35,337 nucleotides of DNA from Betaproteobacteria bacterium (GTDB lineage Bacteria > Pseudomonadota > Gammaproteobacteria > Burkholderiales > Thiobacillaceae): assembly GCA_020061585.1 (NCBI GenBank), contig JAGUXX010000306.1:1-35337 (forward strand), in the 5' to 3' direction. The position numbers and the translations under genes are program-made. Below the pieces are notes generated by a model. That model saw only the letters and a list, made by a program, of their open reading frames with translations. It did no database searches and was not told the origin of the DNA. This document shows, one piece after another, positions 3,633-24,442 of the stretch (position 1 is the first letter of the stretch; every line of letters starts with the position of its first letter).

Positions 3633-6600
3633 TCAACCGCACGCCCCTACCGCGCCGCAAGCGGTACAGAAATCGCAACCGTCTTTCTTGATCACCGTGG
3701 CGTTGCCGCATTCCTTGCAGACTGCGCCAGTCATGATGACTTTGGCGGGTTCGCCACTGGCCGAGGGCGGCAAGGACGGGGTTTGCAGGATGCCCATTTC
3801 CTTCACCGGCAGGCCGTCTTCGGTGAGGATGCCGAGCATGGCGTAGCGGTGGATGATCAGGCGTGCCAGGTAGGCGATGGTGGACGGCCAGTTGGTTTGC
3901 TTGGCACTCCCTGGCACGAAGGCCATGAAGTCGCCCAGCGGTTCCGGGTAGTTCAGCAGCTTGCGCAGTTTCATGCCGATCCAGGCCGGGTCCATCACGC
4001 GCATGTCGAGCGACAACAGTTTGCACAATCCGTCGAGGGCGCGCGGGTATTCGCCGGACAGCCAGACCGAATACGGCCGGGTGACGCCATCCGGCAGGGT
4101 GATTTCCTTGAGGCCGAGAACGAAGTCGTCGCCGGTATGCGGGTTGAGCACGTCGACGGTCCACGACAGCGTGCCGTCGGTGCCGGTTTTCGGCTCCTTG
4201 TGCGAGAACAGGGCGTCGAGAACAGGCGTTTCACCCGCGCCATCGAGCGCATTCAGATCTTCCAGGCGCCAACGCAGCAGTTGCGCGACGGCGGCGACCA
4301 GGCTGGGCATCTGGCGCGGTTCGCCATCAGGCGGGAAGGGAATCGCGCAGCTGTCGTCGCCGCGTGTTTTGGCCAGGGTATCGAGCTTGAGCTTGAGCCA
4401 GCCGCGATCGTTGGCGCGCATGTCCATCGACAGCGTCTTGGCGATGGCCCCGAGACCGCGCGGTTGTTCGGCGCCATTGACCCAGACTTCGAACGGCCAG
4501 GCGCGGCCTTCGCTTGCGCTGGGCTCCGTGTGGCCGACGAACAGCGCGAAGCTGCCGCAGTCGCTGTCGATCATGTAGCACCAGGCCGGGTTGCCGCCGG
4601 ACAGCTTCGGCCGGCCGGGCCATTTCAGGCTTTCCAGCACCGGCGCCGGCAGCGCCTTGATTTCGATGCGCCGGTTGACGTCGGACAGTTCGAAATCTTG
4701 CGGCGATTTGGCGTGCGCGGCGGTGGTCTGGGCGCCCGGCGCTTCGGCGGTGGTGGACAGCACGCTGCCGAGCACGGCATTAGGCCTGTACGTTGCCAAG
4801 CCTTTCAGACCGGCCTTCCAGCCGGCGAAGTAGAGCCCTTCGAATTCGGTGTAGGGGTAGTCGGCCGGTACGTTGACGGTTTTGGAGATGGCCGAATCGA
4901 CATACGGCGCGACGGCGGCGACGGCGTTCATGTGCGCGGTGGCGGAGATTTCCAGCGCGGTGACGAAGGCCGCCGGCAGTTGCGTGACATCGCCGCCCTG
5001 TTCGCGGAACAGCCGCCAGGCGTGGTCTTCCACCTGATATTCCTTCCAGCCGCCGTCGGCTTCGCGCTTTTTGCGCGTGTAGGCCCAGGAGAACGGTGGT
5101 TCGATGCCGTTGCTGGCGTTGTCGGCGAAAGCCAGCGAGATGGTGCCGGTGGGGGCGATGGACAGCAGGTGCGAGTTGCGCATGCCGTGCGCGCGGATGG
5201 CGTCCTTGATGTGTGCCGGCAGGCGGCTGGCGAAACTGCCGCCGGACAGATACAGATCGGCGTTGAACAGCGGAAACGCGCCACGCTCCTTGGCCAGTTC
5301 GACCGAGGCGAGGTAGGTCTGGTCGCGCATGAATTCAGCGATTTTGGTCGAGAAGGCCAGCGCATCCGGGGTGTCGTAACGCAATCCAAGCATCACCAAC
5401 GCGTCGCCCAGGCCAGTGAAACCCAAGCCGACGCGGCGTTTGTTGTGCGCTTCGGCGCGTTGCTTTTCCAGCGGCCAAGCGGTCAGGTCGAGCACGTTGT
5501 CCAACGCCCGCACACACACCGGCAGCATCCGCGCGAGCCCGTCGAAATCGAAATTGGCCTGCTCGGTAAACGCCTGGCGCACGAAGCGGGTCAGGTTGAC
5601 CGAACCGAGGCAGCAGCAGCCGTAGGGCGGCAAGGGTTGCTCACCACATTGTCCGGTAACCAGACCGTTGAAGATGACGCTGTTGTGGTCGGGCTGAGTC
5701 GTGTCGTACACCGCCTCGCGGCCGGCGTGGACAATGCTTGCGATGCGCGAAGTGAAGCGTTGAGTCTTGCGTAGCGCCTTGTCTTTTACCCATTCGAGGT
5801 ACTTCGCATTCTTGTAGTCAAGCAGGAAACCAACCTCATTCATGAACACTTCGCGCGATTCACCATCGATGATCAGTTCGTGATCGGCCTGACAGTCGTA
5901 CTCGCGGCGGCCACCCTTGCCGTCCGGCAGGAAACGAAGGCAGGCCTCGCGACGTTGACGGATACGGCAGAACACGCCCAGGTTTGCGAGCAGCATCTGG
6001 ACTTCCCGCAGCAGACCGGGCTGGCTGGAGGCTAGGCGAACTGAGCAGCTTTGACTGTTGCCGGAGATGTTGACAGTTCCGTCAGCCTGAAACAGGGCGC
6101 GCAAATAACCCTTCACGCAGTCCTCATTGCCACGCCACACCACTTCCGGCACATGCAGCTTGGTGGCGCGAGTGAAACCATAGTGCGCCAGTACGCGCGC
6201 CAGCCTCACCGAGCGCACGAACACATGATTGCGCTGGGGCACGGCAACCGGACTGACTTGATATTCCCGACCGTTGGCGGCGAGGCCTGCGATAAGGAAA
6301 TTGACGATACGCACGGTCTCGGTGGCGAGGGCGCGATCCTCATTCCAGAAGTTGATGATAGCGGCCTCTTGGCCGAGTCCCCGATTGGTGAAATGGCCGT
6401 CACCGGTAATCAACCCCAGTAATACACCCAGTTCCCTGCTGCCCTGCTGACCGAACTGGCCTTTGCCGGACTGCACCAGGATTTCGTCACCGGGGCGCAA
6501 ATCCTTCAATTTCAGTTTGCCTCGTACGGTATAGAAGTCATGCCAGGCAGTGGCTTTGAGGCAATACCCATCCTCGGTGGTGACTTCATACACATCGGCC

Positions 6601-7646
6601 AGTTCTGCCGTCTTGAACGCTGGCTTGGCCGGTCGGGTTGCCACGCCACGCACCGACTCGTCCAAGGTGCGCCTATCCACGCTGGCTTCAAGGGAGACGC
6701 CCTGGGCATACAACTCACCAATAGGAACTAAACCGTATTGCGTCGCCAACCGGGTATCCGCCGTCACGCACGGGTTGGTTGCCTCGATGCTCTCGCAGTA
6801 ATACAGATTGTTGTCGCGGTTGATCCGGTCGAGGAACAGGATGCCGGGTTCGGCGTGGTCGTAGGTGGAGGCCATGATCTGGGTCCACAGATCGCGCGCG
6901 CGGAATTTCTTGTACACCCACAAGCCATCGCTCTGGCGTTGATAGGCGCCGGCGGCTTTCTGTTCGGCGCCGGGTTCGGCGCGGTGCGTCAGTTCCACGT
7001 CGGTGTCGTCTTCCACCGCCTGCATGAAGGCATCGGTGACGCCGACCGAGATGTTGAAGTTCTTCAGATCGCCCTGGTCCTTGGCGTGGATGAACAGTTC
7101 GATATCCGGATGATCGCAGCGCATCACGCCCATCTGCGCGCCGCGCCGGGAGCCGGCGGATTCCACGGTTTCGCAGGAACGGTCGAACACGCGCATGTAG
7201 GAAACCGGGCCGCTGGCGCGTGATTGGGTGCCTTTGACCAGCGCGCCCCTCGGTCGGATGGTGGAGAAGTCATAGCCGACGCCGCCGCCGCGGCGCATGG
7301 TTTCGGCGGCTTCTTCGAGCGCCACGTAGATGCCCGGTTTGCCTTCCGATTCGCCGGAAATCGCATCGCCCACCGGCTGCACGAAGCAGTTGATCAAGGT
7401 CGCCTGCAAGCCGGTGCCGGCGGCGGAATTGATACGTCCAGCGGGAATGAAGCCGGCTTCCATCGCGGCGAAGAAGATTTTTTCCCAATGCGCGCGCAGG
7501 TTTTTCTTTTCCGCCGAGGCCAAGGCCTTGGCGACACGGATGCGCACATCGACGACATTTTTCTCGTCCCCCTTGGCGTATTTTTCCAGCAGCACCTCGC
7601 TGGAAATGGCTTGGTCGGCAAGCTCGGGGAACAGGGCTTCCTGCAT
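3633..7646 (-). CDS. nrdJ: Adenosylcobalamin-dependent ribonucleotide reductase with intein
   Basis: Class II RNR, which reduces ribonucleotides to deoxyribonucleotides with a B12-generated thiyl radical. The precursor is 1337 aa; without the 374-aa intein the enzyme is 963 aa, normal for the long proteobacterial form. The ATG at 7646 is preferred over an in-frame TTG at 7682, because TTTGGAG lies nine bases upstream and the TTG falls inside an operator-like site. Numbered from the ATG: the first redox Cys87 (INCF), the N-x-C-x-E active site (N291, C667, E669) split by the intein, a CCC cluster at 677-679, and PTGTISL further on. The C-terminus has a CxxC...CxxC zinc-ribbon-like end (CKECG, CTACG). 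The enzyme needs no oxygen and no second subunit. No other RNR is in the window. Confidence 0.95.
5649..6770 (-). mobile_element. In-frame LAGLIDADG intein in NrdJ
   Basis: 374-residue insertion, residues 293-666 of the precursor. It starts at Cys293 (CVTADTRL, block A) right after NP and ends just before Cys667 of [12 protein letters not shown]; joining the flanks restores the uninterrupted NPCGEQPL active site. Splicing block B has T366-x2-H369 (KATAWHDF). The homing endonuclease domain has two LAGLIDADG motifs, LLGLITGDG (D416) and ALFQADGTV (D522), both with their acidic residue, so it may be active. Block F/G reads [11 protein letters not shown]: the last two residues are Gly-Gln, not the usual His-Asn. 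The DNA is visibly less GC-rich than its surroundings (two 60-base lines, 5761-5880, hold 28 and 29 G+C), consistent with transfer. Confidence 0.95.
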
Positions 7647-10992: not shown

Positions 10993-11027
10993 TTTCCATT
11001 AATCGCCTATTTTGCCGATAATGGAAA
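10993..11027. promoter_or_regulatory. Inverted repeat, candidate HipB operator
   Basis: TTTCCATTA (10993-11001) and TAATGGAAA (11019-11027) form perfect 9-bp arms with a 17-base spacer, right before the hipB start. HipB-type XRE antitoxins bind inverted repeats of this TCC...GGA kind to repress their own operon. The right arm covers a possible ATG at 11021, which is a reason to prefer the ATG at 11030. Confidence 0.5.
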
Positions 11028-11029
11028 CC

Positions 11030-11332
11030 ATGATTTCTGAAAACATATCCACCCTGCTGCAAACCCTTGGCGACCGCCTGCGCGTCGAACGCCTGGCGCG
11101 CAACGAATCGCAAACCCGCTTTGCCGCCCGCCTCGGCATTTCCGTGCCGACCCTGCGGCGCATGGAACAGGGCGATGCCAGCGCGCAATTCGGCCACTGG
11201 CTGACCGCGTTGACTTTGCTGGGCCGCATCAACGAGGCGGAAGCGCTGCTGGCGCCGCGCTACAGCCTGTTCGATGCCGCCGCGCGGGTGGAAAAGCCGC
11301 CGCGCCAACGCGCCCGGAGAAAAGCCGGATGA
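11030..11332 (+). CDS. hipB: HipB-like XRE-family antitoxin
   Basis: Small DNA-binding antitoxin of about 100 aa. A helix-turn-helix is visible at roughly residues 15-50 (LGDRLRVERLARNESQ, then FAARLGISVPTLRRMEQGD), typical of Cro/C1-type regulators. A basic tail (QRARRKAG) follows. In-frame starts exist at 11021 and 11030; the latter keeps the operator-like repeat outside the gene. The stop overlaps hipA by four bases. By family, it should bind HipA to block its kinase and repress the operon. Confidence 0.85.
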   Translation: MISENISTLLQTLGDRLRVERLARNESQTRFAARLGISVPTLRRMEQGDASAQFGHWLTALTLLGRINEAEALLAPRYSLFDAAARVEKPPRQRARRKAG

Positions 11333-12540
11333 TTCGTCTCGATGTCTGGCTGACGCAGGTCAACGGCGGACAACTGCGCGCCGCCGAACTGGTATTCGGC
11401 GATGCCGACCGGCAAGGCCGCTACGCCGGCGCCCTGCGCTACACGCCGGAATACCTGGCGGATGCGCGCGCTTTCCCGCTCGACCCGGCCGCGTTGCCGT
11501 TGCAGCCGGGCGATTTCTCCAGCCGGCAACTCGACGCTCCGCTGATGCTGCTGGACGATGCCCTGCCCGACGACTGGGGACGCCGGTTGCTGATCCTGCG
11601 TCATGGCTTGCCGCGCGGCCAACAGTCTGAACCGCATCTGTTGCGGGCGCTGGCCGGCCAGGGACTGGGCGCCTTGAGCTTCCACGCGCCCGGCCTGCCG
11701 CCCGGAGAAGAAGCGCATGCCGCCGCGTTGCTTGAACTCGACAGCTTGCTGGATGCCGCGCAGCGCCTGGAAAGCGACGCTAGCGCCGCCATCGACGATA
11801 CCTTCCGCGGCCTGCTGGCCGCCGGCAGTTCTCCTGGCGGCGCGCGACCCAAAGCGCTGGTGCATGACGCCGAAAGCCAGTGGATCGCCAAATTCCCCAG
11901 CCGGCGCGACGATGTCGACATGGTCGGCCTGGAAGCCGCCAGCCTGGAACTGGCGCGGCTGGCCGGTCTGGAAGTGGCGGATTTCCGGCTGCTAGAGTTG
12001 ACCGGTTCGCGCCGCGTCCTGCTGGTCAAGCGCTTCGATTTGACAACGCAAGGCGGTCGCCGGCACATGCTGAGTTTCCGCAGCCTGCTGCAAGCCGGCG
12101 GCTACTACGTATCGCGCTATGCCGACCTGATCGACGCCTTGCGCCGCTACAGCGCCTGGCCGGAACGCGACGTGCCGCAAATGTACCGGCAGATGGTGTT
12201 CAACGCCCTGCTCGGCAACACCGACGACCACCTGAAGAACTTCTGGCTGCTGGCCGATGCCGACGGCTATCGTCTGTCGCCCGCCTTCGATCTGCTGCCG
12301 GACACCGGCGCGCGGCGCGAACATGTGCTGCTGTTCGATCTGACGCCGCTGGCGCCCGGCCCGCAGGAACTGGCCGCGCTGGGCCGCAAATGGGGCATCG
12401 GCGGCGCCGCGAATATCTGTCAGGAAGTCGAAGCCGCCGTCACGCGGTTTGCCGCAATCGCCGCCGTCTACAACGTGCCGGAACCCGAAATCCATCGCTT
12501 TCAACAGGACATCGCCCGTCGGTGTCGCACCGAAAGGTAA
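11329..12540 (+). CDS. hipA: HipA-family serine/threonine kinase toxin
   Basis: 403-aa HipA-like kinase. In E. coli HipA phosphorylates glutamyl-tRNA synthetase and induces persistence; the target here is unknown. Kinase landmarks: the autophosphorylation/P-loop segment SSPGGARPK with S168 in the place of E. coli S150, WIAKFPS, the catalytic loop TDDHLKNF with D299, and AFDLLP with the metal-binding D321. All are intact, so it is probably active. The N-terminal subdomain is the part often called couple_hipA. It starts within the end of hipB (ATGA overlap), and dgt starts two bases after its stop, so it looks built into the aroB-dgt transcript. Confidence 0.92.
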
Positions 12541-14390: not shown

Positions 14391-14732
14391 ATGTTGTTGA
14401 CCGAATCGCTGGCCGCCTGGCAAACCCCGGCGTTCAGCGAGGTCTTCAAGGCTGAAGTCGAACGACTGAATCCCGACCTGCTGCCCCTGCAACAAGGCCT
14501 GGCGCATTCCAGCAGCGCCAATGGCGCGAATCTCGGGGTGTCGATCCTGAACGTCGGCGAGACGCCGGATGCCATTCAGGTCAAGGCCGGGTTGTTCTAT
14601 ACCGGCATCATCGCTGGTTGCAGTTGCGCCGATGACCCGACCGTCCAGCACGAAGTCAACGAATACTGCGAAGTGCGTTTCGAGATTGCCAAACTCGGCG
14701 CGACGGCGACGGTTACCTTGTTGCGCGACTGA
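14391..14732 (+). CDS. Conserved hypothetical protein with CxC motif
   Basis: About 113 aa from the ATG; a GTG at 14373 would add six residues. I do not recognise an assigned function. The protein has an amphipathic N-terminal half (LAAWQTPAFSEVF, then LPLQQGLAHSS) and a second half with GIIAGCSCADDP and EYCEVRF, so three cysteines and nearby acids that could bind a metal. No signal peptide or membrane segment. It closely follows the FMN reductase gene (22 bases) and is probably in the same transcript. Its last 20 bases overlap the 3' end of the RND pump gene on the other strand. Confidence 0.75.
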   Translation: MLLTESLAAWQTPAFSEVFKAEVERLNPDLLPLQQGLAHSSSANGANLGVSILNVGETPDAIQVKAGLFYTGIIAGCSCADDPTVQHEVNEYCEVRFEIAKLGATATVTLLRD

Positions 14733-17700
14733 TCACGGACAAGCGTTTGCGCATCAGCCAGCCATGCATCAGCGGCGTGACGAACAGCGTCAGCGGCGTG
14801 GCCACCGCCAGCCCCCAGATGATGCTGGCGGCCAACGGCCCCCACAGCAAGGAGTCGCCGCCCCAGCCGAAGGCCAGCGAAACCAGGCCGCCGATGACGG
14901 TCAGCGTGGTGATGATGATCGGAATCAAGCGCCGCCGGCCGGCAAAGAAAGCGGCGGCCAACGGCGGCAGACCACGCGCCAGGCGATCTTCGCCGGCCGA
15001 CACCAGAACGATGGAGGCATTCACCGCCACGCCGGACAATGCCACGCAGCCATACAGCGTGTAGAGGGTGATCGGCTGGCCGGTCAGCAGCAGCCCGAGC
15101 ACCACCCCGGCCAGCGCCATCGGCGCGGTCGCCAGAATCACCAGCGGCAGCACAAAGCGTCCGAACTGCACGGCGAGCAGGGCGTACATCAGGATGAAGC
15201 CCAGCACCAGGAACGCCAGCAGATCGCGCAAGCTGGCTTTCACGTCATCCAGCTCGCCGCCTTGTTGCAGGATGACGTCGGGATGCCGCGACGCGATGTC
15301 GGCCCAGGCGGCATCCACCGCCGCCACCGCCTGGCGGGCGGTGATGCGGTCCTGATCGAAACCGGCATGCAGGGTGATGGCGCGCTCGCCATTGACCCGG
15401 CGCAATTCGCCCGGCGTCGATTCCAGAGTCACCGTGAACAATTGCGCGGGATCCACCAGGCCGCCGTCCGGCAGACGCCAGGGTTTGGCCAGCCAGCGCT
15501 GCACTTCGACCTGATTCATCGCCTTGCCGCGCACCACGACATCCAGCGATTGCCGGCCATCGTCGATCTTGCCCACCGCGACGCCCTCGAAATGCAGACG
15601 CACCAGCGCCGCCAGCTTGAACGGATCGAGCCCGGCGCGGGCGGCGGCGGGCGCATCGACTTGCAGGGTCAGGCGCGGCTGACTGAAACCGGCGTCGTCG
15701 TTCATGTCGCTGAAGCCCGGTGTTTCGACCAGCGCCTGACGCAGATCGCGCGCCGCCGCCGCGAGATGCTCCAGCGTTGCGCCGGTCAGGCGCAGCGACA
15801 GGCTGGACAGCATCGGCAGATCGGCGGACAGCACCTGCACCGAGACGCTCTCGGCGCCGGTGTTGCCGAGTTCCTCCAGCAACGCCGGGCGCAACGCCGC
15901 GACAAAGTCGGCGACGCCGCGACCGCTCACCGATTGCGGCGCCAGGCTGATGGTGATCTGACCCATCTGCTCGCCGAGGACCAGTTCGCTGGGCGTGAAT
16001 TGCAGCCCGGCCATGGCCAGCGTGGCGTTCAGTTCGCCGGGGCGGGCGACGCGCTTCGCCGCCAGTTCGAGTTGGCGCGCGGCGGCCAGCGTGGTTTCCA
16101 GATTGCTGGCCGGCGGCATCTGCAGGTTGACGTTGAATACCCGCAACGGGTCGGAGGCGAACCAGCGCGGCTTGACCCAGTCCAGCATCAGCGCCGCGCC
16201 GGCGAGCAGGAACACGCTGGTGAACAGGGCGAATACCGGCGCCGGGTGGCGCATGTTCCAGCGCAGACCTCTGCCATAATAACGCCGCAAATGTCGCGCG
16301 AAGCTATCGCGCCAGCCGGGTTCGGCGGCGTTGCCGCCCCAGGCCACGGCATGTCGCGGCAATATCCACAACGAGGCGGCCAGGCTGCACAGCAGCGTCA
16401 GCATCACCGCCAGCGGCGTGACGAACATGAAGCGGCCCATCAGACCAGGCAAGAACAGCAACGGCGCGAAGGCCAGACAGGTGGCGAAGATCGATGCGGT
16501 GACCGGTCGCGCGACTTCCTTCAACGCCGCCGTCACCGCCGCCACGCGATCCATGCCGGCGGCCAGGCGCAGGCGTATCGCTTCCGCCACCACCACCGCG
16601 TCGTCAAGCGGAATGCCGAGCACGATGGCCACCCCCAGCAATACCGAGACATTCAGGGTATGGCCCATCAGATGCAAGGCCAGGAACATCCCGGCCAGCG
16701 CGAACGGCACACCGATGCTGGTCAGCAAGGCCAGGCGATGTCCGAGGAAGAACCAGGTCACCAGCAACACCACGGCCAGGCCGAACAAGGCGTTGGCTTC
16801 CATCACGCCGATCGCCTCGCGGGTGGTGGCGCTCTGGTCGTCAAGCAAGGTCAGCACCGGCGCGTCGAACGCCTGATTGGTCTCCTTGACCAGCGCGTGC
16901 ACGGCGTCGGTCAGCTCCAGCGTGTTGACGTTCTCGCGCTTGATCACCGACAGCAACACCGCCGGCCGGCCATCCAGATGCACCAGTTCGCGCGCCGGCG
17001 AGATGCCGGTGGCGACGCTGGCCAGTTCGCCGATTGGCGTCATCCGTCCATCGGCGCCGACGATGGGCAATTCGGCGAGGAAATCCGGATTGGCGTTGAG
17101 CCCCTGGACGCGCATCGCGTAGCGGCGACCGGACATGTCGGCCATCCCCGCCGGCAGACTGCGGGTCTGCTCGGCGACCGCGCGGGTCAACGCTTCGAGC
17201 GAGACGCCGCGACTTTCCAGTACGGCGGGGTCGAAACGCACGGCCAGTTCGCGGCTGCGCATGCCATAGGACCAGATGCGGCCGACGCCGGGCAGTTTTT
17301 CCAGCTTGTCGCGCGTCGCCTCGGCCAGATCGCAGACCTGGCCGTCGGCCACGCCACCGCTGACCACGACCATGGCGGTGGGAAAGAAATTCGAGGAGGT
17401 CAGTTCGATGACCTGCGGCGGTCGCGCCTCCTTGGGAAAATCCGCCGAAGCCTGGCGAATCTCGCGATCCAGCGCCGCCAGCCGACGCTCGAAACGCCCC
17501 GAGTCGATGTCATGGAAACGCACCAGCAAGGTGGCGACATGATCGCGCGAGGTGGCGGCGACAAACCGCACATCGCTGACCCGTCGCGCGGCGGCCTCCA
17601 GCGGCAAGGCGATTTCGCGCTCGACATCCTGCGCGGTGGCGCCCGGCCAGACCACCGCCACCGCCACCCAATTGAGTTCGACCTCCGGATACTGGGCGCG

Positions 17701-17790
17701 CGGCATGGCGTGATAGGCCCAGGCGCCGAGCAGCAGCAGCAACACCAGAGTCAAATCCGCTAGACGGTGGGAACGAAAAATCGACGGCAT
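14713..17790 (-). CDS. RND-family efflux permease (AcrB/MdtB-like)
   Basis: Inner-membrane proton-driven transporter of about 1025 aa, the size of a full HAE/HME RND pump. N-terminal membrane segment LADLTLVLLLLLGAW is followed by a large periplasmic loop, then a run of membrane helices with GIPLDDAVVVAEA, where the DD pair matches the proton-relay aspartates of AcrB TM4. A second periplasmic loop and six more helices follow (for example FLVLGFILMYALL). The ATG at 17790 is preferred to a TTG at 17808. No membrane-fusion protein or outer-membrane channel is adjacent, which is unusual for this class. Substrate unknown. Its gene is divergent from the SRPBCC pair and tail-to-tail with the CxC protein. 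Confidence 0.93.
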   Translation of the reverse strand: MPSIFRSHRLADLTLVLLLLLGAWAYHAMPRAQYPEVELNWVAVAVVWPGATAQDVEREIALPLEAAARRVSDVRFVAATSRDHVATLLVRFHDIDSGRFERRLAALDREIRQASADFPKEARPPQVIELTSSNFFPTAMVVVSGGVADGQVCDLAEATRDKLEKLPGVGRIWSYGMRSRELAVRFDPAVLESRGVSLEALTRAVAEQTRSLPAGMADMSGRRYAMRVQGLNANPDFLAELPIVGADGRMTPIGELASVATGISPARELVHLDGRPAVLLSVIKRENVNTLELTDAVHALVKETNQAFDAPVLTLLDDQSATTREAIGVMEANALFGLAVVLLVTWFFLGHRLALLTSIGVPFALAGMFLALHLMGHTLNVSVLLGVAIVLGIPLDDAVVVAEAIRLRLAAGMDRVAAVTAALKEVARPVTASIFATCLAFAPLLFLPGLMGRFMFVTPLAVMLTLLCSLAASLWILPRHAVAWGGNAAEPGWRDSFARHLRRYYGRGLRWNMRHPAPVFALFTSVFLLAGAALMLDWVKPRWFASDPLRVFNVNLQMPPASNLETTLAAARQLELAAKRVARPGELNATLAMAGLQFTPSELVLGEQMGQITISLAPQSVSGRGVADFVAALRPALLEELGNTGAESVSVQVLSADLPMLSSLSLRLTGATLEHLAAAARDLRQALVETPGFSDMNDDAGFSQPRLTLQVDAPAAARAGLDPFKLAALVRLHFEGVAVGKIDDGRQSLDVVVRGKAMNQVEVQRWLAKPWRLPDGGLVDPAQLFTVTLESTPGELRRVNGERAITLHAGFDQDRITARQAVAAVDAAWADIASRHPDVILQQGGELDDVKASLRDLLAFLVLGFILMYALLAVQFGRFVLPLVILATAPMALAGVVLGLLLTGQPITLYTLYGCVALSGVAVNASIVLVSAGEDRLARGLPPLAAAFFAGRRRLIPIIITTLTVIGGLVSLAFGWGGDSLLWGPLAASIIWGLAVATPLTLFVTPLMHGWLMRKRLSVISRATR

Positions 17791-17905
17791 GGATATACTT
17801 CGTGGCAAGGCGAATATATTGTGACCAATTGTGCTCGATTAGCGTAATTTTCTATTCCGAGATCGCCAGCAAATCAGGCAACAACCTCGGATATCGGCGA
17901 CCCGC

Positions 17906-18472
17906 GTGAAGACTCTACTCCAAACCCTTTTTGTTTCCTGCCTGCTGGCGCTGTCGGCATTGCCGGCGCACGCCGCCGAGCCGCGCATGAGCCTGCGTCA
18001 GGTCGGCAATCTGCTGACCATCGAAGGTCAATTGGATGTGCCTGTCAACCAAACCACAGCCTGGGCGGTTTTAACCGACTATGCGCGCTTTTCCGAATTT
18101 GTTCCCGGCATCACCAGCAGTCGTATCGTGGAGCAGCGCGACAACCTTAAATTGCTCGAACAACGTGGCGTGGTCAATACCGGCCAATTTCGCATGCCGT
18201 TTCAAGGCGCGGTGCGCGTCGAGGAACGACTGCGCGGAGGCCGTCCGGACAGCCTGGCGATTGCGTTTGTCAGCGGACCATTGAAAGATATTCAGGGCGA
18301 GTGGAACATTAAATCCGGCGCGCCTCTCGAACTCAGCTACCGAATGCACATGGATCTGATGAAATCCCCATTTCCGCCGCCCATCGCTGTGACTATCATC
18401 GAACAACAAGTCCGAACCTGGGTCGAAGCTTTCGCCCGTGAAATGCAAGCCGTGAAAAGGAACAAGGAATGA
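17906..18472 (+). CDS. Periplasmic SRPBCC/START-like protein 1
   Basis: 188-aa exported protein with a GTG start and a clear signal peptide (hydrophobic LLQTLFVSCLLALSALP, cleavage after AHA near residue 23). The mature part resembles the polyketide cyclase/START (SRPBCC) fold: an opening strand with LDVPVNQTTAWAVLTDY, then FSEFVPGITSSRIV, and a late helix WVEAFAREM. This fold binds hydrophobic ligands such as lipids or sterols, but none can be assigned. It overlaps the next gene, a paralogue, by four bases. About 115 bases separate it from the divergent RND gene. Confidence 0.8.
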   Translation: MKTLLQTLFVSCLLALSALPAHAAEPRMSLRQVGNLLTIEGQLDVPVNQTTAWAVLTDYARFSEFVPGITSSRIVEQRDNLKLLEQRGVVNTGQFRMPFQGAVRVEERLRGGRPDSLAIAFVSGPLKDIQGEWNIKSGAPLELSYRMHMDLMKSPFPPPIAVTIIEQQVRTWVEAFAREMQAVKRNKE

Positions 18473-19089
18473 AACGCGCTCTATTGGCGGCGGTCGTGCT
18501 GTTGCTCGCTTCGGCAGCCGCACTGGCGAGCACCGCCCGCGTGAAGGCCAACACCGGATTGTCCGGGGTGAAAGTCGAGGCCTCGCAAACGCTGCAAACC
18601 GATGCCCGCACACTTTGGGACACCATTACCGACTACAACCGCCTGGCGACCTTCATACCAGACATGGTTTCCAGCCGGGTGATCTCCGCGCCGGGCGCGC
18701 CCAAGCGCGTCGAACAGATCGCCGATGCCGGGCTGTTCGCTTTCGTCATGCCCGACCAGGTGGTCCTGGCCCTGGAAGAGGTTCCGCATAGCGTGATCCG
18801 GTTTCGCGCCATCTCCGGCAAGCTGGTGTCGATGACCGGCGAATGGCGTATCGTCGGCGACAAAGCCCCGGTGACCCTGATTTACCGCGCCCACATCGTG
18901 CCGCTGAGCCCGATTCCGCCGCTGGGGTCGGGGTACTTTGTCGAGGACGAAGTCCGCGCCCGCTTCGAGGCGGTGGGGCGCGAGGCGGAACGGCGGGTCC
19001 GCGAAGCGCGACGCTCGGCGATACCCAACACGCCGCTGCTGACTTCGCCCTATCTGGCGCCTTATCAGCCCCCTTTTTTAGCGCGTTGA
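18469..19089 (+). CDS. Periplasmic SRPBCC/START-like protein 2
   Basis: 206-aa paralogue of the previous gene, also exported (signal peptide RALLAAVVLLLASAAALA, cleavage near ALA-ST). Shared pattern: TLQTDARTLWDTITDYNRLATFIPDMVSS lines up with AWAVLTDYARFSEFVPGITSS of protein 1, and both end in a PLGSG/PFPP turn plus a terminal helix (RARFEAVGREAERRV here). A proline-rich tail (YLAPYQPPFLAR) is specific to this copy. The ATGA overlap with protein 1 and their similarity suggest an old tandem duplication, working together or as a heterodimer. Confidence 0.8.
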   Translation: MKRALLAAVVLLLASAAALASTARVKANTGLSGVKVEASQTLQTDARTLWDTITDYNRLATFIPDMVSSRVISAPGAPKRVEQIADAGLFAFVMPDQVVLALEEVPHSVIRFRAISGKLVSMTGEWRIVGDKAPVTLIYRAHIVPLSPIPPLGSGYFVEDEVRARFEAVGREAERRVREARRSAIPNTPLLTSPYLAPYQPPFLAR

Positions 19090-19137
19090 CCGGCGACATC
19101 GTCTTGCAAGCGCGACCATAACAACAAGGAACCTTTG

Positions 19138-19530
19138 ATGTCACGGCAAGCCGTCTGGCTGATTTCCGTCCTGTTTGCCGGCATGCTGTCGGGCTGCGAC
19201 CAGATTTCCGAACGCGCCGGCTTTCCCGACCCGGTCAAGATCGAAGCCGAAGGCAAAGCCATCGGCGGCGCCTGCCGCCATGCCGGACGCGGCCTGGAAG
19301 ATTGCTATCGACTCAACAAGCTGGCGCAGAAAGCGGCGGTCTACGCGGGCTGGAAGGAAATGAACGAGTACATGCTGAAGAACAATATGCAGGCGGTAAC
19401 GCCCGCCATTCCGCTGGACTTGCCGACATCCCGGCGCAAGGCGAATACCGACGACATCGCGGAAAGCCCGGACGCGTCCAAAACTAGTGACGCGGCGGAC
19501 AGCAAAAAAACCGACGTCAAGCACAAGTGA
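19138..19530 (+). CDS. Small lipoprotein of unknown function
   Basis: About 130 aa. The N-terminus has a hydrophobic stretch and lipobox LSGC (GMLSGCDQ), so it should be lipid-anchored in the envelope. The middle has two cysteines (ACRHAGRGLEDCYRLN) that could form a disulfide, in a short helical part with LNKLAQKAAVYAGWKEMNEYM. The C-terminal third is a charged, low-complexity tail (KTSDAADSKKTDVKHK). AAGGA lies about eight bases before the ATG. It sits between the SRPBCC pair and the ybhP-like gene in what looks like one transcript. No function is assigned. Confidence 0.8.
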   Translation: MSRQAVWLISVLFAGMLSGCDQISERAGFPDPVKIEAEGKAIGGACRHAGRGLEDCYRLNKLAQKAAVYAGWKEMNEYMLKNNMQAVTPAIPLDLPTSRRKANTDDIAESPDASKTSDAADSKKTDVKHK

Positions 19531-19550
19531 CCGGTTATACCGAAATCAGC

Positions 19551-20306
19551 ATGAGCCCCTCTCTGCGCATCGCCAGCTACAACATCCACAAGGGTTTATC
19601 GTTCTTCAACCGTCGCAACGTGCTGCATGATGTACGCGACCGGCTGATGGGATTGAACGCCGAGATCGTGTTTCTCCAGGAAGTGCAGGGCCACCATACC
19701 CGCGGCGCGAAACGCTTCGAAAGCTGGCCGGCGATGCCGCAGCACGAGTTCATCGCCGGCGACCTGTGGAACGATGTCGCCTACGGCATGAACTCGGTTT
19801 ATGACCACGGTCATCACGGCAACGCCATCCTGTCGCGGTTTCCCATACTGCGCTGGGAGAATATCGACATCTCCGCGCATGTCTTCGAAAACCGCGGCCT
19901 GCTGCACTGCGAACTGGCCGTTCCCAACATGACCCAGCCGCTGCACGCCATCTGCCTGCATCTGGCGCTGAACGAATCTGGTCGACGCAAGCAGATTCAA
20001 CAGCTCAGCGAGCGCATCCGCCGCATGGTGCCGGACGACGCGCCGCTGATCATCGCCGGCGACTTCAATGACTGGCGGCAACGCACCAGTTCCTATCTGG
20101 CCGAAGAGCTGGGTCTGAAAGAAGTTTTCGAATCCCACCATGGTCACCACGCGCGTAGTTTTCCGGCGGCGCTGCCGTTTCTGACGCTCGATCGCATCTA
20201 TGTCCGCGGCTTCAGCATCGCCTCCGCGCAGGTGCTGCATGGCCAACGCTGGCGCCGCCTGTCCGACCATGCCGCATTGACCGCCCAGTTGCGCCCCTTG
20301 GTCTGA
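19551..20306 (+). CDS. ybhP: Endonuclease/exonuclease/phosphatase-family protein (YbhP-like)
   Basis: EEP-fold protein of about 251 aa with the metal-dependent hydrolase residues: SYNIHKG, FLQEVQG with catalytic Glu, HLALNESGR, AGDFNDW with Asp/Asn, and SDHAAL at the end. Unlike xthA it lacks the AP-endonuclease features. The next gene is clsB, as in the E. coli ybhP-clsB-ybhN operon, so this is best read as YbhP. Its substrate is not firmly known; a phosphoester in phospholipid metabolism would suit the context. A GTG at 19527, overlapping the lipoprotein stop, could add eight residues. Confidence 0.88.
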   Translation: MSPSLRIASYNIHKGLSFFNRRNVLHDVRDRLMGLNAEIVFLQEVQGHHTRGAKRFESWPAMPQHEFIAGDLWNDVAYGMNSVYDHGHHGNAILSRFPILRWENIDISAHVFENRGLLHCELAVPNMTQPLHAICLHLALNESGRRKQIQQLSERIRRMVPDDAPLIIAGDFNDWRQRTSSYLAEELGLKEVFESHHGHHARSFPAALPFLTLDRIYVRGFSIASAQVLHGQRWRRLSDHAALTAQLRPLV

Positions 20307-20325
20307 CCCGGCCGGTTTCGACGGC

Positions 20326-21522
20326 ATGTTGAAGGGCGGTAACCAGCTCATCTTGCTGGAGAACGGCGCGGAGTACTTTCCCGCGCTGATCAAGGCGCTG
20401 GACGACGCGCGGCGGGAAATCCATCTGGAAACCTATATTTTCGCCAACGACGCCGCCGCCGCCGAGATCGCCGCCGCGCTGATGCGGGCGGCCAGGCGCG
20501 GCGTGGAAACCCGCTTGCTGCTCGATGGATACGGCTCGCGGCACTTTTCCAGCCAGACGCTGGAAGCGTTGCGGGCGTCCGGCGTGGCGGTCATGGTGTT
20601 TCGCCCGGAGCGCGGCCTGATGCCGCTGCGTCGCGGTCGATTGCGGCGCATGCACCGCAAATTGGCGGTAGTCGACGCGCGCGTCGGTTTTGTCGGCGGC
20701 ATCAATCTGATCGACGATCTGCACGGCCGCAAGTTGATCGCGCCGCGCCAGGATTACGCGGTGCGGATCGAAGGCCCGCTGGTCGCCGACATGCATGTCG
20801 CCGCGCGCCACCTGTGGCGGCAGGTGTTGTGGAGTCGACTCGGCCTGCGCCGTGGCGAGGACGCCTGGCTCAAACCCGAAACGCAAGCCGTCGGCTCGCA
20901 ACGCGCCAGTTTCCTGACGCGCAACAGCGTGCGCCGGCGGCGGGCGATCGAAACCGCCTATCTGCGCGCGATCCGTCGCGCGCAGCGGGAAATCCTGCTC
21001 GCCAATGCCTACTTTCTGCCCGGCTTGCGCTTCCGCCATGCCCTGATCGCCGCCGCCAGGCGCGGCGTACGGGTGCGCCTGATCGTGCAGGGACATTCCG
21101 ACCATCCGCTCTATCATCTGGCGGCGCGCGCGCTGTATCGCCACTTGCTCGATAACGGCATCGAGCTTTACGAATATCACGCCACCGAATTGCACGCCAA
21201 GGTCGCGGTCATCGACCAACGCTGGGCCACCGTCGGCTCCAGCAACATCGACCCGTTCAGTTTGCTGCTGTCACGCGAAGCCAATGTCGTTGTGCAGGAC
21301 CGCGGTTTCGCCGCGCAGTTGCAAGCCAGCCTGGAAAGCGCCCTGGCGCGTGGCGCACACCGGATCTATCGGCGCGCCTGGCGGCGCGTGCCGTGGTATG
21401 CCCGGTTCGCCTCCTGGCTGGCCTATGGCGTGGTGCGGCTGCTGATGGGCGTCAGCGGCTACGCGCAGACTTACGATGCGATGCGCGGCGGTGAATCGCG
21501 CAATCGCCGTGCGGCCGAGTAG
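20326..21522 (+). CDS. clsB: Cardiolipin synthase B
   Basis: 398-aa phospholipase-D superfamily enzyme that makes cardiolipin at the inner membrane. Two HKD motifs are complete: H110-x-K112-x4-D117 (MHRKLAVVD) and H290-x-K292-x4-D297 (LHAKVAVID), followed by GSSNIDPFS. Like E. coli ClsB it lacks the N-terminal membrane helices of ClsA; the C-terminal region (WYARFASWLAYGVVRLLMG) is the likely membrane contact. It starts 19 bases after the ybhP-like gene. The third partner, ybhN, is not found downstream. The 200-base gap after it shows nothing recognisable. Confidence 0.93.
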   Translation: MLKGGNQLILLENGAEYFPALIKALDDARREIHLETYIFANDAAAAEIAAALMRAARRGVETRLLLDGYGSRHFSSQTLEALRASGVAVMVFRPERGLMPLRRGRLRRMHRKLAVVDARVGFVGGINLIDDLHGRKLIAPRQDYAVRIEGPLVADMHVAARHLWRQVLWSRLGLRRGEDAWLKPETQAVGSQRASFLTRNSVRRRRAIETAYLRAIRRAQREILLANAYFLPGLRFRHALIAAARRGVRVRLIVQGHSDHPLYHLAARALYRHLLDNGIELYEYHATELHAKVAVIDQRWATVGSSNIDPFSLLLSREANVVVQDRGFAAQLQASLESALARGAHRIYRRAWRRVPWYARFASWLAYGVVRLLMGVSGYAQTYDAMRGGESRNRRAAE

Positions 21523-23836: not shown

Positions 23837-24442
23837 TCAGTCGCTGTCGCCCCAGCGCGCCATCAGGCGATGCTCGATGGCCAGTTGATCGAGCACCCGC
23901 GCGACGACGAAGTCGATCACCTGTTCGACGTTTTGCGGGCGATGGTAGAAGCCGGGGTTGGCCGGCAGGATAGTCGCCCCGGCTTCCGCCAAAGCGGTCA
24001 TGTTGCGCAAGTGGATCAGCGAGAACGGGGTTTCCCGCGCCACCAGTATCAGCGCTCGCTTTTCCTTGAGGATCACGTCGGCGGCGCGCTCGATCAGGTT
24101 GTCCGCCAGACCGTGGGCGATCGCCGCCAGGCTGCCCATGGTGCAGGGGCAGATGACCATGGCATCGGCCGGATTGGAACCGGACGCCGCCGGCGCGAAC
24201 CACTCTTCCTTGCCGTAGGCCGCCAGCTTCCCGGCATGCCCGGCGAAGCGCGCATCGAAAAACGCCACCAGTTGCGCATTGCCGGCGGGCAACTGCAGGT
24301 CGAGTTCCTGTTTGGCGACGATGCGGGCGGCCTGCGACAGCAGCAGATCGACCCGACATCCCGCGCGCAGCAGACATTCCAGCAGACGCATGCCGTAGGC
24401 CATGCCGGAGGCGCCGGTGAGAGCAAGCGTGATGCGTTTCAT
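23837..24442 (-). CDS. ubiX: Flavin prenyltransferase UbiX
   Basis: 201-aa flavoprotein that attaches a dimethylallyl group to FMN, making the cofactor used by UbiD-type decarboxylases, including in ubiquinone synthesis. Landmarks: LALTGASGMAYGMRLLE (FMN site, residues 5-21), CPCTMGSLAAIAHGLADNLIERAADV, and LVARETPFSLIHLRNM. Unspecific old name: 3-octaprenyl-4-hydroxybenzoate carboxy-lyase partner. The start overlaps the stop of the Gx transporter gene by four bases and GGAG lies about seven bases upstream. No ubiD is in view. Confidence 0.95.
   Translation of the reverse strand: MKRITLALTGASGMAYGMRLLECLLRAGCRVDLLLSQAARIVAKQELDLQLPAGNAQLVAFFDARFAGHAGKLAAYGKEEWFAPAASGSNPADAMVICPCTMGSLAAIAHGLADNLIERAADVILKEKRALILVARETPFSLIHLRNMTALAEAGATILPANPGFYHRPQNVEQVIDFVVARVLDQLAIEHRLMARWGDSD

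Follow-up and report, generated by a model that had tools for sequence, protein, structure and literature searches.

Paired START-like genes between a divergent RND permease gene and a lipoprotein-ybhP-clsB group form what looks like two joined envelope modules

In a stretch of 35,337 nucleotides from a member of the Thiobacillaceae (GenBank assembly GCA_020061585.1, contig JAGUXX010000306.1), hereafter the window, we find a row of five genes for two exported SRPBCC/START-like proteins (S1 and S2), a lipoprotein (LP), YbhP and cardiolipin synthase B (ClsB), with a divergent RND permease gene facing S1. Because S1 and the permease share the same 16 of 61 genomes, the row looks like two joined modules, one of the RND gene with S1-S2 and one of LP-ybhP-clsB. 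The row combines known kinds of protein in a new arrangement, and any joint function is a prediction. The gene order, the fold of S2, the co-inheritance of S1 with the permease and the linkage of SRPBCC genes to ybhP-clsB were computed. The passage of phospholipids and quinones across the periplasm is only partly understood. Tentatively, and with somewhat less than even confidence, we favor a reading of two joined envelope modules in which S1 and S2 ferry membrane lipid through the periplasm.

Table 1. Features of the gene row and of the permease gene that faces it
Feature	Position	Strand	Evidence
RND permease, AcrB family, 1025 aa from ATG 17790	14713..17790	-	PF00873 E=4.7e-133
Divergent intergenic region RND gene/S1, 115 bases	17791..17905		sequence
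S1, exported SRPBCC/START-like, 188 aa, GTG start	17906..18472	+	PF03364 E=4.9e-17
S2, exported SRPBCC/START-like, 206 aa	18469..19089	+	PF03364 E=7.5e-8
LP, small lipoprotein	19138..19530	+	lipobox LSGC-DQ; no Pfam/NCBIfam match
YbhP, endonuclease/exonuclease/phosphatase fold	19527..20306	+	PF03372 E=3.7e-18
ClsB, cardiolipin synthase B	20326..21522	+	NF008427 381.5 bits, equivalog cut-off 281

An earlier note on this DNA had read the row as five close genes on one strand, and all five are present on the plus strand with operon-like spacing: S1 overlaps S2, and LP overlaps ybhP, by 4 bases each, and the remaining gaps are 48 and 19 bases. Genes were called with a home-made gene caller, and the export signals of the row's proteins were judged by eye. 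The known ybhP-clsB pair that the note recognized is confirmed by identity to the E. coli K-12 proteins (45% over 244 residues for YbhP, directly before clsB; 39% for ClsB). YbhP has all of the motifs YNIH, LQEV, GDFN and SDH, and ClsB, predicted to make cardiolipin, has two intact HxKx4D catalytic motifs, at residues 110 and 290. The lipoprotein, called uncharacterised in the note, does belong to an undescribed family. Its alignment (20 of the 21 LP rows, with the near copy L146 left out) shows a conserved C-x9-C and GWKEMNEYM core and a variable charged tail; we preferred its ATG start at 19138 over a TTG at 19135. A near-identity search of plasmid records gave no match to the whole row. Our search of the open-licence literature, mostly judged from search listings, found no description of an SRPBCC/lipoprotein/ybhP-clsB arrangement, in keeping with the note, whose author knew of no described system of this make-up.

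That five-gene make-up was nevertheless incomplete, as it overlooked the permease. The permease satisfies Pfam ACR_tran, scores 383.5 bits against its best NCBIfam model, NF033617 (RND_permease_2), below the cut-off of 1250, and has as its nearest solved structure by sequence the multidrug efflux permease MexK. A TTG at 17808, upstream of the chosen ATG, is also open as a start. The permease gene is flanked by a gene read by eye as FMN reductase-like and by a 113-aa ORF to which Pfam gives no match; among the neighboring genes we found none for an adaptor (membrane fusion) protein or an outer-membrane channel. The intergenic region is presumed from its position in the sequence to hold the promoters of both the RND gene and S1, and a promoter scan of it returned no sigma-70-like site. 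S1 itself has a hydrophobic N-terminus ending in ALPAHAA. Searching the whole class with S1 turned up only weak matches (at most 31 bits) outside the window's own genome.

The S1 gene and the RND orthologue are adjacent and divergent in 16 of 16 genomes and jointly absent elsewhere (Fisher p=5e-15 over the 61 genomes, kinship ignored). In a tree of S2 from 24 genomes, five changes are needed to explain the joint S1/RND label, three of them forced by starred branches. Three genomes (G005, G015 and G021) keep remnants of S1 without the RND gene. Single deletions may have removed both genes at once, in which case the pattern shows linkage but not necessarily joint function. The note had treated the SRPBCC pair and clsB as one unit, which these data divide: S1 goes with the divergent permease, and S2 goes with LP-ybhP-clsB, a group that holds together even in genomes that have lost S1 and the RND gene.

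This pattern bears on an explanation in which S1, perhaps with S2, is part of a unit for efflux or detoxification, the START-fold protein presenting a hydrophobic compound that the RND permease removes. The clsB link would then be incidental or stem from shared membrane-stress regulation. The perfect co-occurrence and adjacency of S1 and the permease, its AcrB family membership and likeness to MexK, and two genomes (G025 and G030) that carry the S1-S2 pair without ClsB beside it all speak for such a unit. Against it, the permease has no adaptor gene beside it, S2 keeps its place beside LP-ybhP-clsB in genomes that lack both the RND gene and S1, and SRPBCC-ybhP-clsB rows recur in families with no such permease seen nearby. 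We consider an efflux unit unlikely, and plain multidrug efflux was rejected as a full account because S2 persists without the permease.

The two SRPBCC proteins, called paralogues in the note, both match PF03364 and PF10604 above gathering scores (for PF03364, 62.8 bits for S1 and 33.1 bits for S2 against a cut-off of 23.4) and they share 34% identity over 140 residues. An origin of S2 by recent local duplication of S1 was dismissed because the two fall in separate clades with long branches, S1 forming a clade of its own in the SRPBCC tree. Identity with the RatA toxin was also rejected; against NF007999, S1 scores 19.8 bits (cut-off 258) and S2 has no match. The SRPBCC tree carried the S1 of one genome (G007) twice, and one comparison with SRPBCC references used 94 of 95, leaving out a 247-aa row from G026. 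A search with an alignment of closer relatives returned 24 named loci, all from metagenome-assembled genomes, with labels that include Hydrogenophilales, Thiobacillus, Gallionellaceae and Betaproteobacteria.

The AlphaFold model of S2 shows, with confidence (pLDDT 89.4), the helix-grip START-like fold, consistent with the fold that the note assigned. Foldseek returned 336 matches to this model at E<=0.001, of which the best 50 are START-like proteins, aromatase/cyclases and PYL. The top match is 3qsz (E=1.6e-8, 16% identity), a Xanthomonas axonopodis protein classed as a STAR-related lipid transfer protein. Lipid-carrying START domains also align with the model (CERT with ceramide, Z 14.1; MLN64, 13.7). 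The fold by itself does not point specifically to lipid carriage, because the highest VIA scores go to polyketide aromatase/cyclases (Z 16-17).

The solved sequences nearest to the SRPBCC family profile are 1t17 (CC1736; E=5.8e-6) and 3qsz (7.1e-6), and the first of these raises a different ligand. The exported SRPBCC proteins could be periplasmic Coq10-like quinone carriers or chaperones, with S1 and S2 extracting or delivering ubiquinone or a related quinone and the phospholipid genes being neighbors that also serve the membrane. According to the available part of one report, CC1736 is a Coq10 orthologue that binds CoQ (PMC11541779). RquA, a rhodoquinone enzyme, adjoins an SRPBCC gene in 4 of 31 RquA places (G052, G318, G403 and G423). 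Since 1t17 is a Coq10 orthologue and RquA adjoins SRPBCC in four genomes, a quinone is a serious rival ligand. UbiX is also encoded in the window, as read from the sequence (23837-24442), but on the opposite strand and with one gene in between. Moreover, 3qsz equals 1t17 in sequence score and leads in Foldseek, the window's genome gave no RquA match, and RquA linkage is rarer than ClsB linkage. On balance we give the quinone-carrier explanation a low probability, on the order of that given to efflux.

Turning to conservation, 21 of the 23 genomes in the window's genus have S2, LP and ClsB within about 4 kb of one another on a single contig, and this grouping is therefore more than chance. The exceptions are one genome in which they are split over contigs (G005) and one, 58% complete, without a match (G013). 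The note had asked whether the SRPBCC pair occurs mostly apart from clsB, and had suggested a gene-neighborhood survey. Where the pair is present it adjoins clsB in 14 of 16 genomes; G025 has its modules on separate contigs, as does G032, and in G030 a distance of about 34 kb separates LP from ClsB. At the order level, at least 18 of the 57 genomes that have both an exported SRPBCC gene and ClsB place the two within about 4 kb of each other, against about 0.15 expected (assuming a genome size of 3.7 Mb and a reach of 5 kb), and this linkage spans six families beyond the window's own. The link of exported SRPBCC proteins to cardiolipin synthesis genes is thus real but partial. It recurs in other families of the order; as a majority state it is not established at this count, and up to 39 of the 57 genomes are without it among the matches listed. 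On the SRPBCC tree, the ybhP/clsB label requires 17 changes, where shuffled labels need 23.9 on average and 1 of 500 shuffles is as low. These figures, on which we place no weight, understate the linkage because the label is missing for short-locus rows and for G351, in which the gene caller failed to find clsB.

A frequent order-level row is aspS-nudB-(nadA)-SRPBCC-(X10)-ybhP-clsB, in which X10 is an undescribed lipoprotein that adjoins SRPBCC in 13 of 31 genomes and ClsB in 10 of 31 among the matches listed. Neither LP nor X10 has a match in Pfam or PDB sequence profiles. X10 has no Foldseek match at E<=0.001, and its C-terminal half aligns, weakly, only with NPP1-like proteins (Z ~9, 10-16% identity), a likeness on which we base no functional assignment. 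Members of the LP family are present in 75 of the 300 genomes sampled from the order, and their linkage to ClsB in the order sample is confined to the window's family. Such rows invite an account in which an aspS-nudB-ybhP-clsB housekeeping row gathers exported accessory genes in a loose conserved order, with no joint process. That aspS, nudB and nadA share the row without an envelope role, that LP is found elsewhere in the order, and that the modules are separated in G025, G030 and G032 would fit it. In the window's genus, however, the S2-LP-ybhP-clsB block sits outside the aspS-nudB row and still holds together, and X10, SRPBCC and ClsB are pairwise linked in differing combinations. We think loose gene order improbable, about as much so as a quinone carrier.

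A lipid-carrier reading of the row is plausible, if unproven. In the first module of the reading we favor, an inner-membrane RND permease would have S1, divergently encoded, as its dedicated periplasmic START-fold partner, with S2 behind S1. In the second, older in the family, LP-ybhP-clsB would make or remodel anionic phospholipid. S1 and S2 may each bind a single hydrophobic molecule in the predicted helix-grip pocket, a membrane lipid being the likeliest; S1 would swap cargo with the permease, S2 would handle lipid made or altered by YbhP and ClsB, and LP might be a membrane-anchored docking protein. Ligand binding, the identity of the cargo, the direction of transport, the role of LP and contacts between the proteins are what we infer here. 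A bolder version, to which we assign only a small chance, is a START-domain envelope shuttle in which the permease, S1, S2 and LP, with YbhP and ClsB, transport an anionic phospholipid (cardiolipin or another) or else a quinone between the two membranes. If true, the shuttle would parallel MCE/Mla or Bst transport but work with START proteins, and the SRPBCC-X10-ybhP-clsB rows would be a second form of it in other families of the same order. Should START-fold proteins carry lipid or quinone beside ClsB and an RND permease, a eukaryotic lipid-carrier fold would gain a bacterial envelope counterpart. The named gene rows make the carrier idea checkable in few strains, and the S1-RND pair offers a well-defined and inexpensive target whether or not the lipid link to ClsB holds.

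Membership of the row in the Mla/MCE systems was rejected, as none of the five proteins has an MCE domain match in Pfam or NCBIfam. Coq10/CC1736 and RatA-type START proteins have PF03364 in common with the window's proteins, which, unlike these, are exported. Further comparisons draw on the available part of each source. In Methylococcus capsulatus, BstA, BstB and BstC transport sterols with an RND-superfamily permease and periplasmic lipid binders (PMC10942540). BstA is MMPL/HpnN-like, whereas the row's permease is of the AcrB family, and BstB is a PF12974 binding protein and not, like S1 and S2, of START fold; Pfam found no PF12974 protein among the row's five. MxaD of Methylobacterium, a 17 kDa protein of Bet v 1 type, is likewise periplasmic, and it stimulates the interaction of methanol dehydrogenase with cytochrome cL (PMC2577659); the row has no methanol oxidation genes. 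AhfA of Corynebacterium glutamicum is an SRPBCC helix-grip protein required for envelope lipid synthesis and is duplicated in tandem in M. smegmatis; it belongs to the actinobacterial DUF2505 family, and no cardiolipin synthase context is seen in the part of the report available (PMC9671496). In the E. coli ybhP-clsB-ybhN operon, beside the ybhGFSR ABC exporter, ybhP likewise directly precedes clsB. The E. coli row has no SRPBCC, LP or RND gene, and the window has neither ybhN nor ABC genes beside clsB. In two relatives, G029 and G032, an ABC-2 pair adjoins LP-ybhP-clsB.

All five genes that the earlier note had described, encoding two exported SRPBCC/START-like proteins (S1 and S2), a small lipoprotein (LP), YbhP and ClsB, were found in the window, which spans all of contig C65 in a draft genome of 4.6 Mb. 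The named relatives of this genome are metagenome-assembled and are labeled Hydrogenophilales, Thiobacillus, Gallionellaceae or Betaproteobacteria. Neighboring genes of the row overlap or almost touch, and by their spacing they look like a single transcription unit; a promoter scan upstream of S1 gave no clear promoter. Read by eye, the N-termini of S1 and S2 are hydrophobic and terminate in Ala-x-Ala motifs. In LP, the lipobox cysteine is followed by Asp and Gln, which by the E. coli rule would direct inner-membrane retention, if that rule applies in this group. Motif checks found both HxKx4D motifs of ClsB and all four motifs sought in YbhP retained.

The proposed link between SRPBCC genes and clsB is real and extends beyond the window. 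Of 300 genomes of the order, taken as a fixed sample, 79 encode an exported-type SRPBCC protein, 183 a close ClsB and 57 both. The two lie within ~4 kb of each other in at least 18 of these 57 genomes, against a chance expectation of ~0.15; six of the 18 belong to the window's genus and 12 to six other families. Among the places listed, the linkage is not seen in most genomes having both. Gene maps from these other families, that of G059 included, follow all or part of the order DUF502-aspS-nudB-(nadA)-SRPBCC-(X10)-ybhP-clsB, where the names aspS, nudB, nadA and DUF502 were assigned by reading sequences rather than by family search. Three more loci (G307, G356 and G415) pair SRPBCC with ybhP, with no adjoining clsB called in their gene maps.

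Within the family, the row appears to consist of two modules. S2, LP and ClsB occur on one contig within ~4 kb in 21/23 genomes of the genus, whether S1 is present or absent. Outside the genus, LP adjoins ClsB in eight of the 14 remaining family genomes, and the six of these that were mapped (G023, G024, G025, G029, G031 and G032) all carry an LP-ybhP-clsB row, with no SRPBCC gene in that locus. G025 holds S1-S2 and its divergent RND permease on a separate contig from LP-ybhP-clsB, and in G030 the permease, S1, S2 and LP stand together with ClsB ~34 kb distant. In the simplest account, the permease-S1-S2 module would have joined onto an LP-ybhP-clsB row that is probably older.

The permease gene, which lies upstream of S1 in divergent orientation and was left out of the module in the earlier note, encodes an AcrB-family RND protein (PF00873, E=4.7e-133); no adaptor gene adjoins it in the window. 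When the window's genome is compared with 60 relatives, close orthologues of S1 and of the permease occupy the identical set of 16 of the 61, and the two genes are adjacent and divergent in every one. Identity to the window's proteins is 45-72% for S1 in the other genomes and 53-88% for the permease; both sets are cleanly separated, because the runners-up reach only 37% (S1-like, S1 remnants aside) and 43%. An S1 remnant of 38 residues in G015 and G021 and a stop-containing S1 fragment in G005 remain where the permease is absent. On an S2 tree of 24 genomes, the joint S1 and permease label requires five changes, three of them forced by starred branches. Together with the remnants lacking a permease, this makes several separate joint losses likely, each of which may have been a single deletion. 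The permease itself retains the proton-relay aspartate pair and has Asn where the aligned MexK sequence carries a basic residue (Lys940 in AcrB). This Asn lies within the motif LSGVAVNAS, present in four of six permease copies checked, the window's among them, and not found in the other two.

The START-like nature claimed for S2 is borne out by its predicted model (94 sequences; mean pLDDT 89.4, pTM 0.81), whose order of strands and helices is that of a helix-grip domain. Foldseek placed it closest to 3qsz, a STAR-related lipid transfer protein from Xanthomonas (E=1.6e-8). A structural aligner ranked polyketide aromatase/cyclases at the top (3tvr; Z 17.1, rmsd 2.6, 159 aligned) and START lipid carriers lower (CERT, Z 14.1; MLN64, Z 13.7). 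The closest solved chains in sequence are 1t17 (5.8e-6) and 3qsz (7.1e-6), the former being CC1736, described as a Coq10 orthologue in PMC11541779. The modeled fold fits a carrier of hydrophobic molecules without specifying which one, and helix-grip relatives include many enzymes.

Other genes recur beside these modules. X10, a lipoprotein family of ~490 residues (loci L122, L184, L186, L190, L191, L192, L196, L203, L210, L215 and L246-L275), occurs in 31/300 order genomes and adjoins SRPBCC in 13 of the 31 and ClsB in at least ten (one a fragment). Thirty members gave no Pfam matches, and the X10 model, although confident (pLDDT 91.8), matched no solved structure in the PDB by Foldseek at E<=0.001. 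For the C-terminal half of X10, the only structural alignments are with NPP1-like proteins (Z ~9, identity 10-16%). The rhodoquinone enzyme RquA, confirmed for the G403 copy by NF038261, adjoins an exported SRPBCC gene in 4/31 RquA places; RquA, exported SRPBCC and X10 are neighbors in four order genomes (L122, L191, L203 and L215). An ABC-2 permease pair adjoins other exported SRPBCC genes at L120, L128, L145 and L147, and LP-ybhP-clsB at L119 and L141. The latter arrangement recalls E. coli, where the ybhGFSR exporter adjoins ybhP-clsB; the permeases are distant relatives (19-23% identity). The recurrence of a phospholipid synthase, a quinone enzyme, exporters and lipoproteins as neighbors points to hydrophobic envelope molecules.

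From this comparative evidence, we tentatively suggest, at somewhat under even odds, that S1 and S2 are periplasmic carriers of a cargo that may be phospholipid or quinone and might move either way. Both would be soluble in the periplasm, S1 exchanging cargo with the RND permease and S2, for which LP might be a docking site, with the membrane at which ClsB and YbhP work. The protein kinds involved are all known, except for the two lipoprotein families, LP and X10. The earlier note knew of no described system with such a make-up, and our searches of open-licence papers likewise found no account that places exported START-fold proteins beside ybhP-clsB or pairs them with an RND permease of their own. 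Some parts of the carrier idea have precedents: MxaD, a periplasmic member of the SRPBCC superfamily (PMC2577659); Coq10/CC1736, quinone-binding START proteins (PMC11541779); BstA/B/C, in which sterol-binding proteins of the periplasm accompany an RND protein (PMC10942540); and AhfA, an SRPBCC protein required for mycolic acid synthesis (PMC9671496).

Elsewhere in the window are an intein-split gene and a HipBA-type pair, and the contig begins with two similar partial genes that resemble disrupted duplicates or a seam in the assembly.

Features of the window and the basis of their assignment
Feature	Position	Strand	Basis
Similar partial nucleotidyltransferase (RmlA-like) pieces, contig start	2-379, 1442-1898	+	One matches PF00483
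Ribonucleotide reductase split by intein with LAGLIDADG homing-endonuclease domain	3633-7646	-	Pfam; intein-splicing domain slightly below cut-off
HipBA-type pair: small helix-turn-helix gene, then HipA	11021-12540	+	First by eye; HipA PF07804
RND permease	14713-17790	-	
S1	17906-18472	+	
S2	18469-19089	+	
LP	19138-19530	+	
YbhP	19527-20306	+	
ClsB	20326-21522	+
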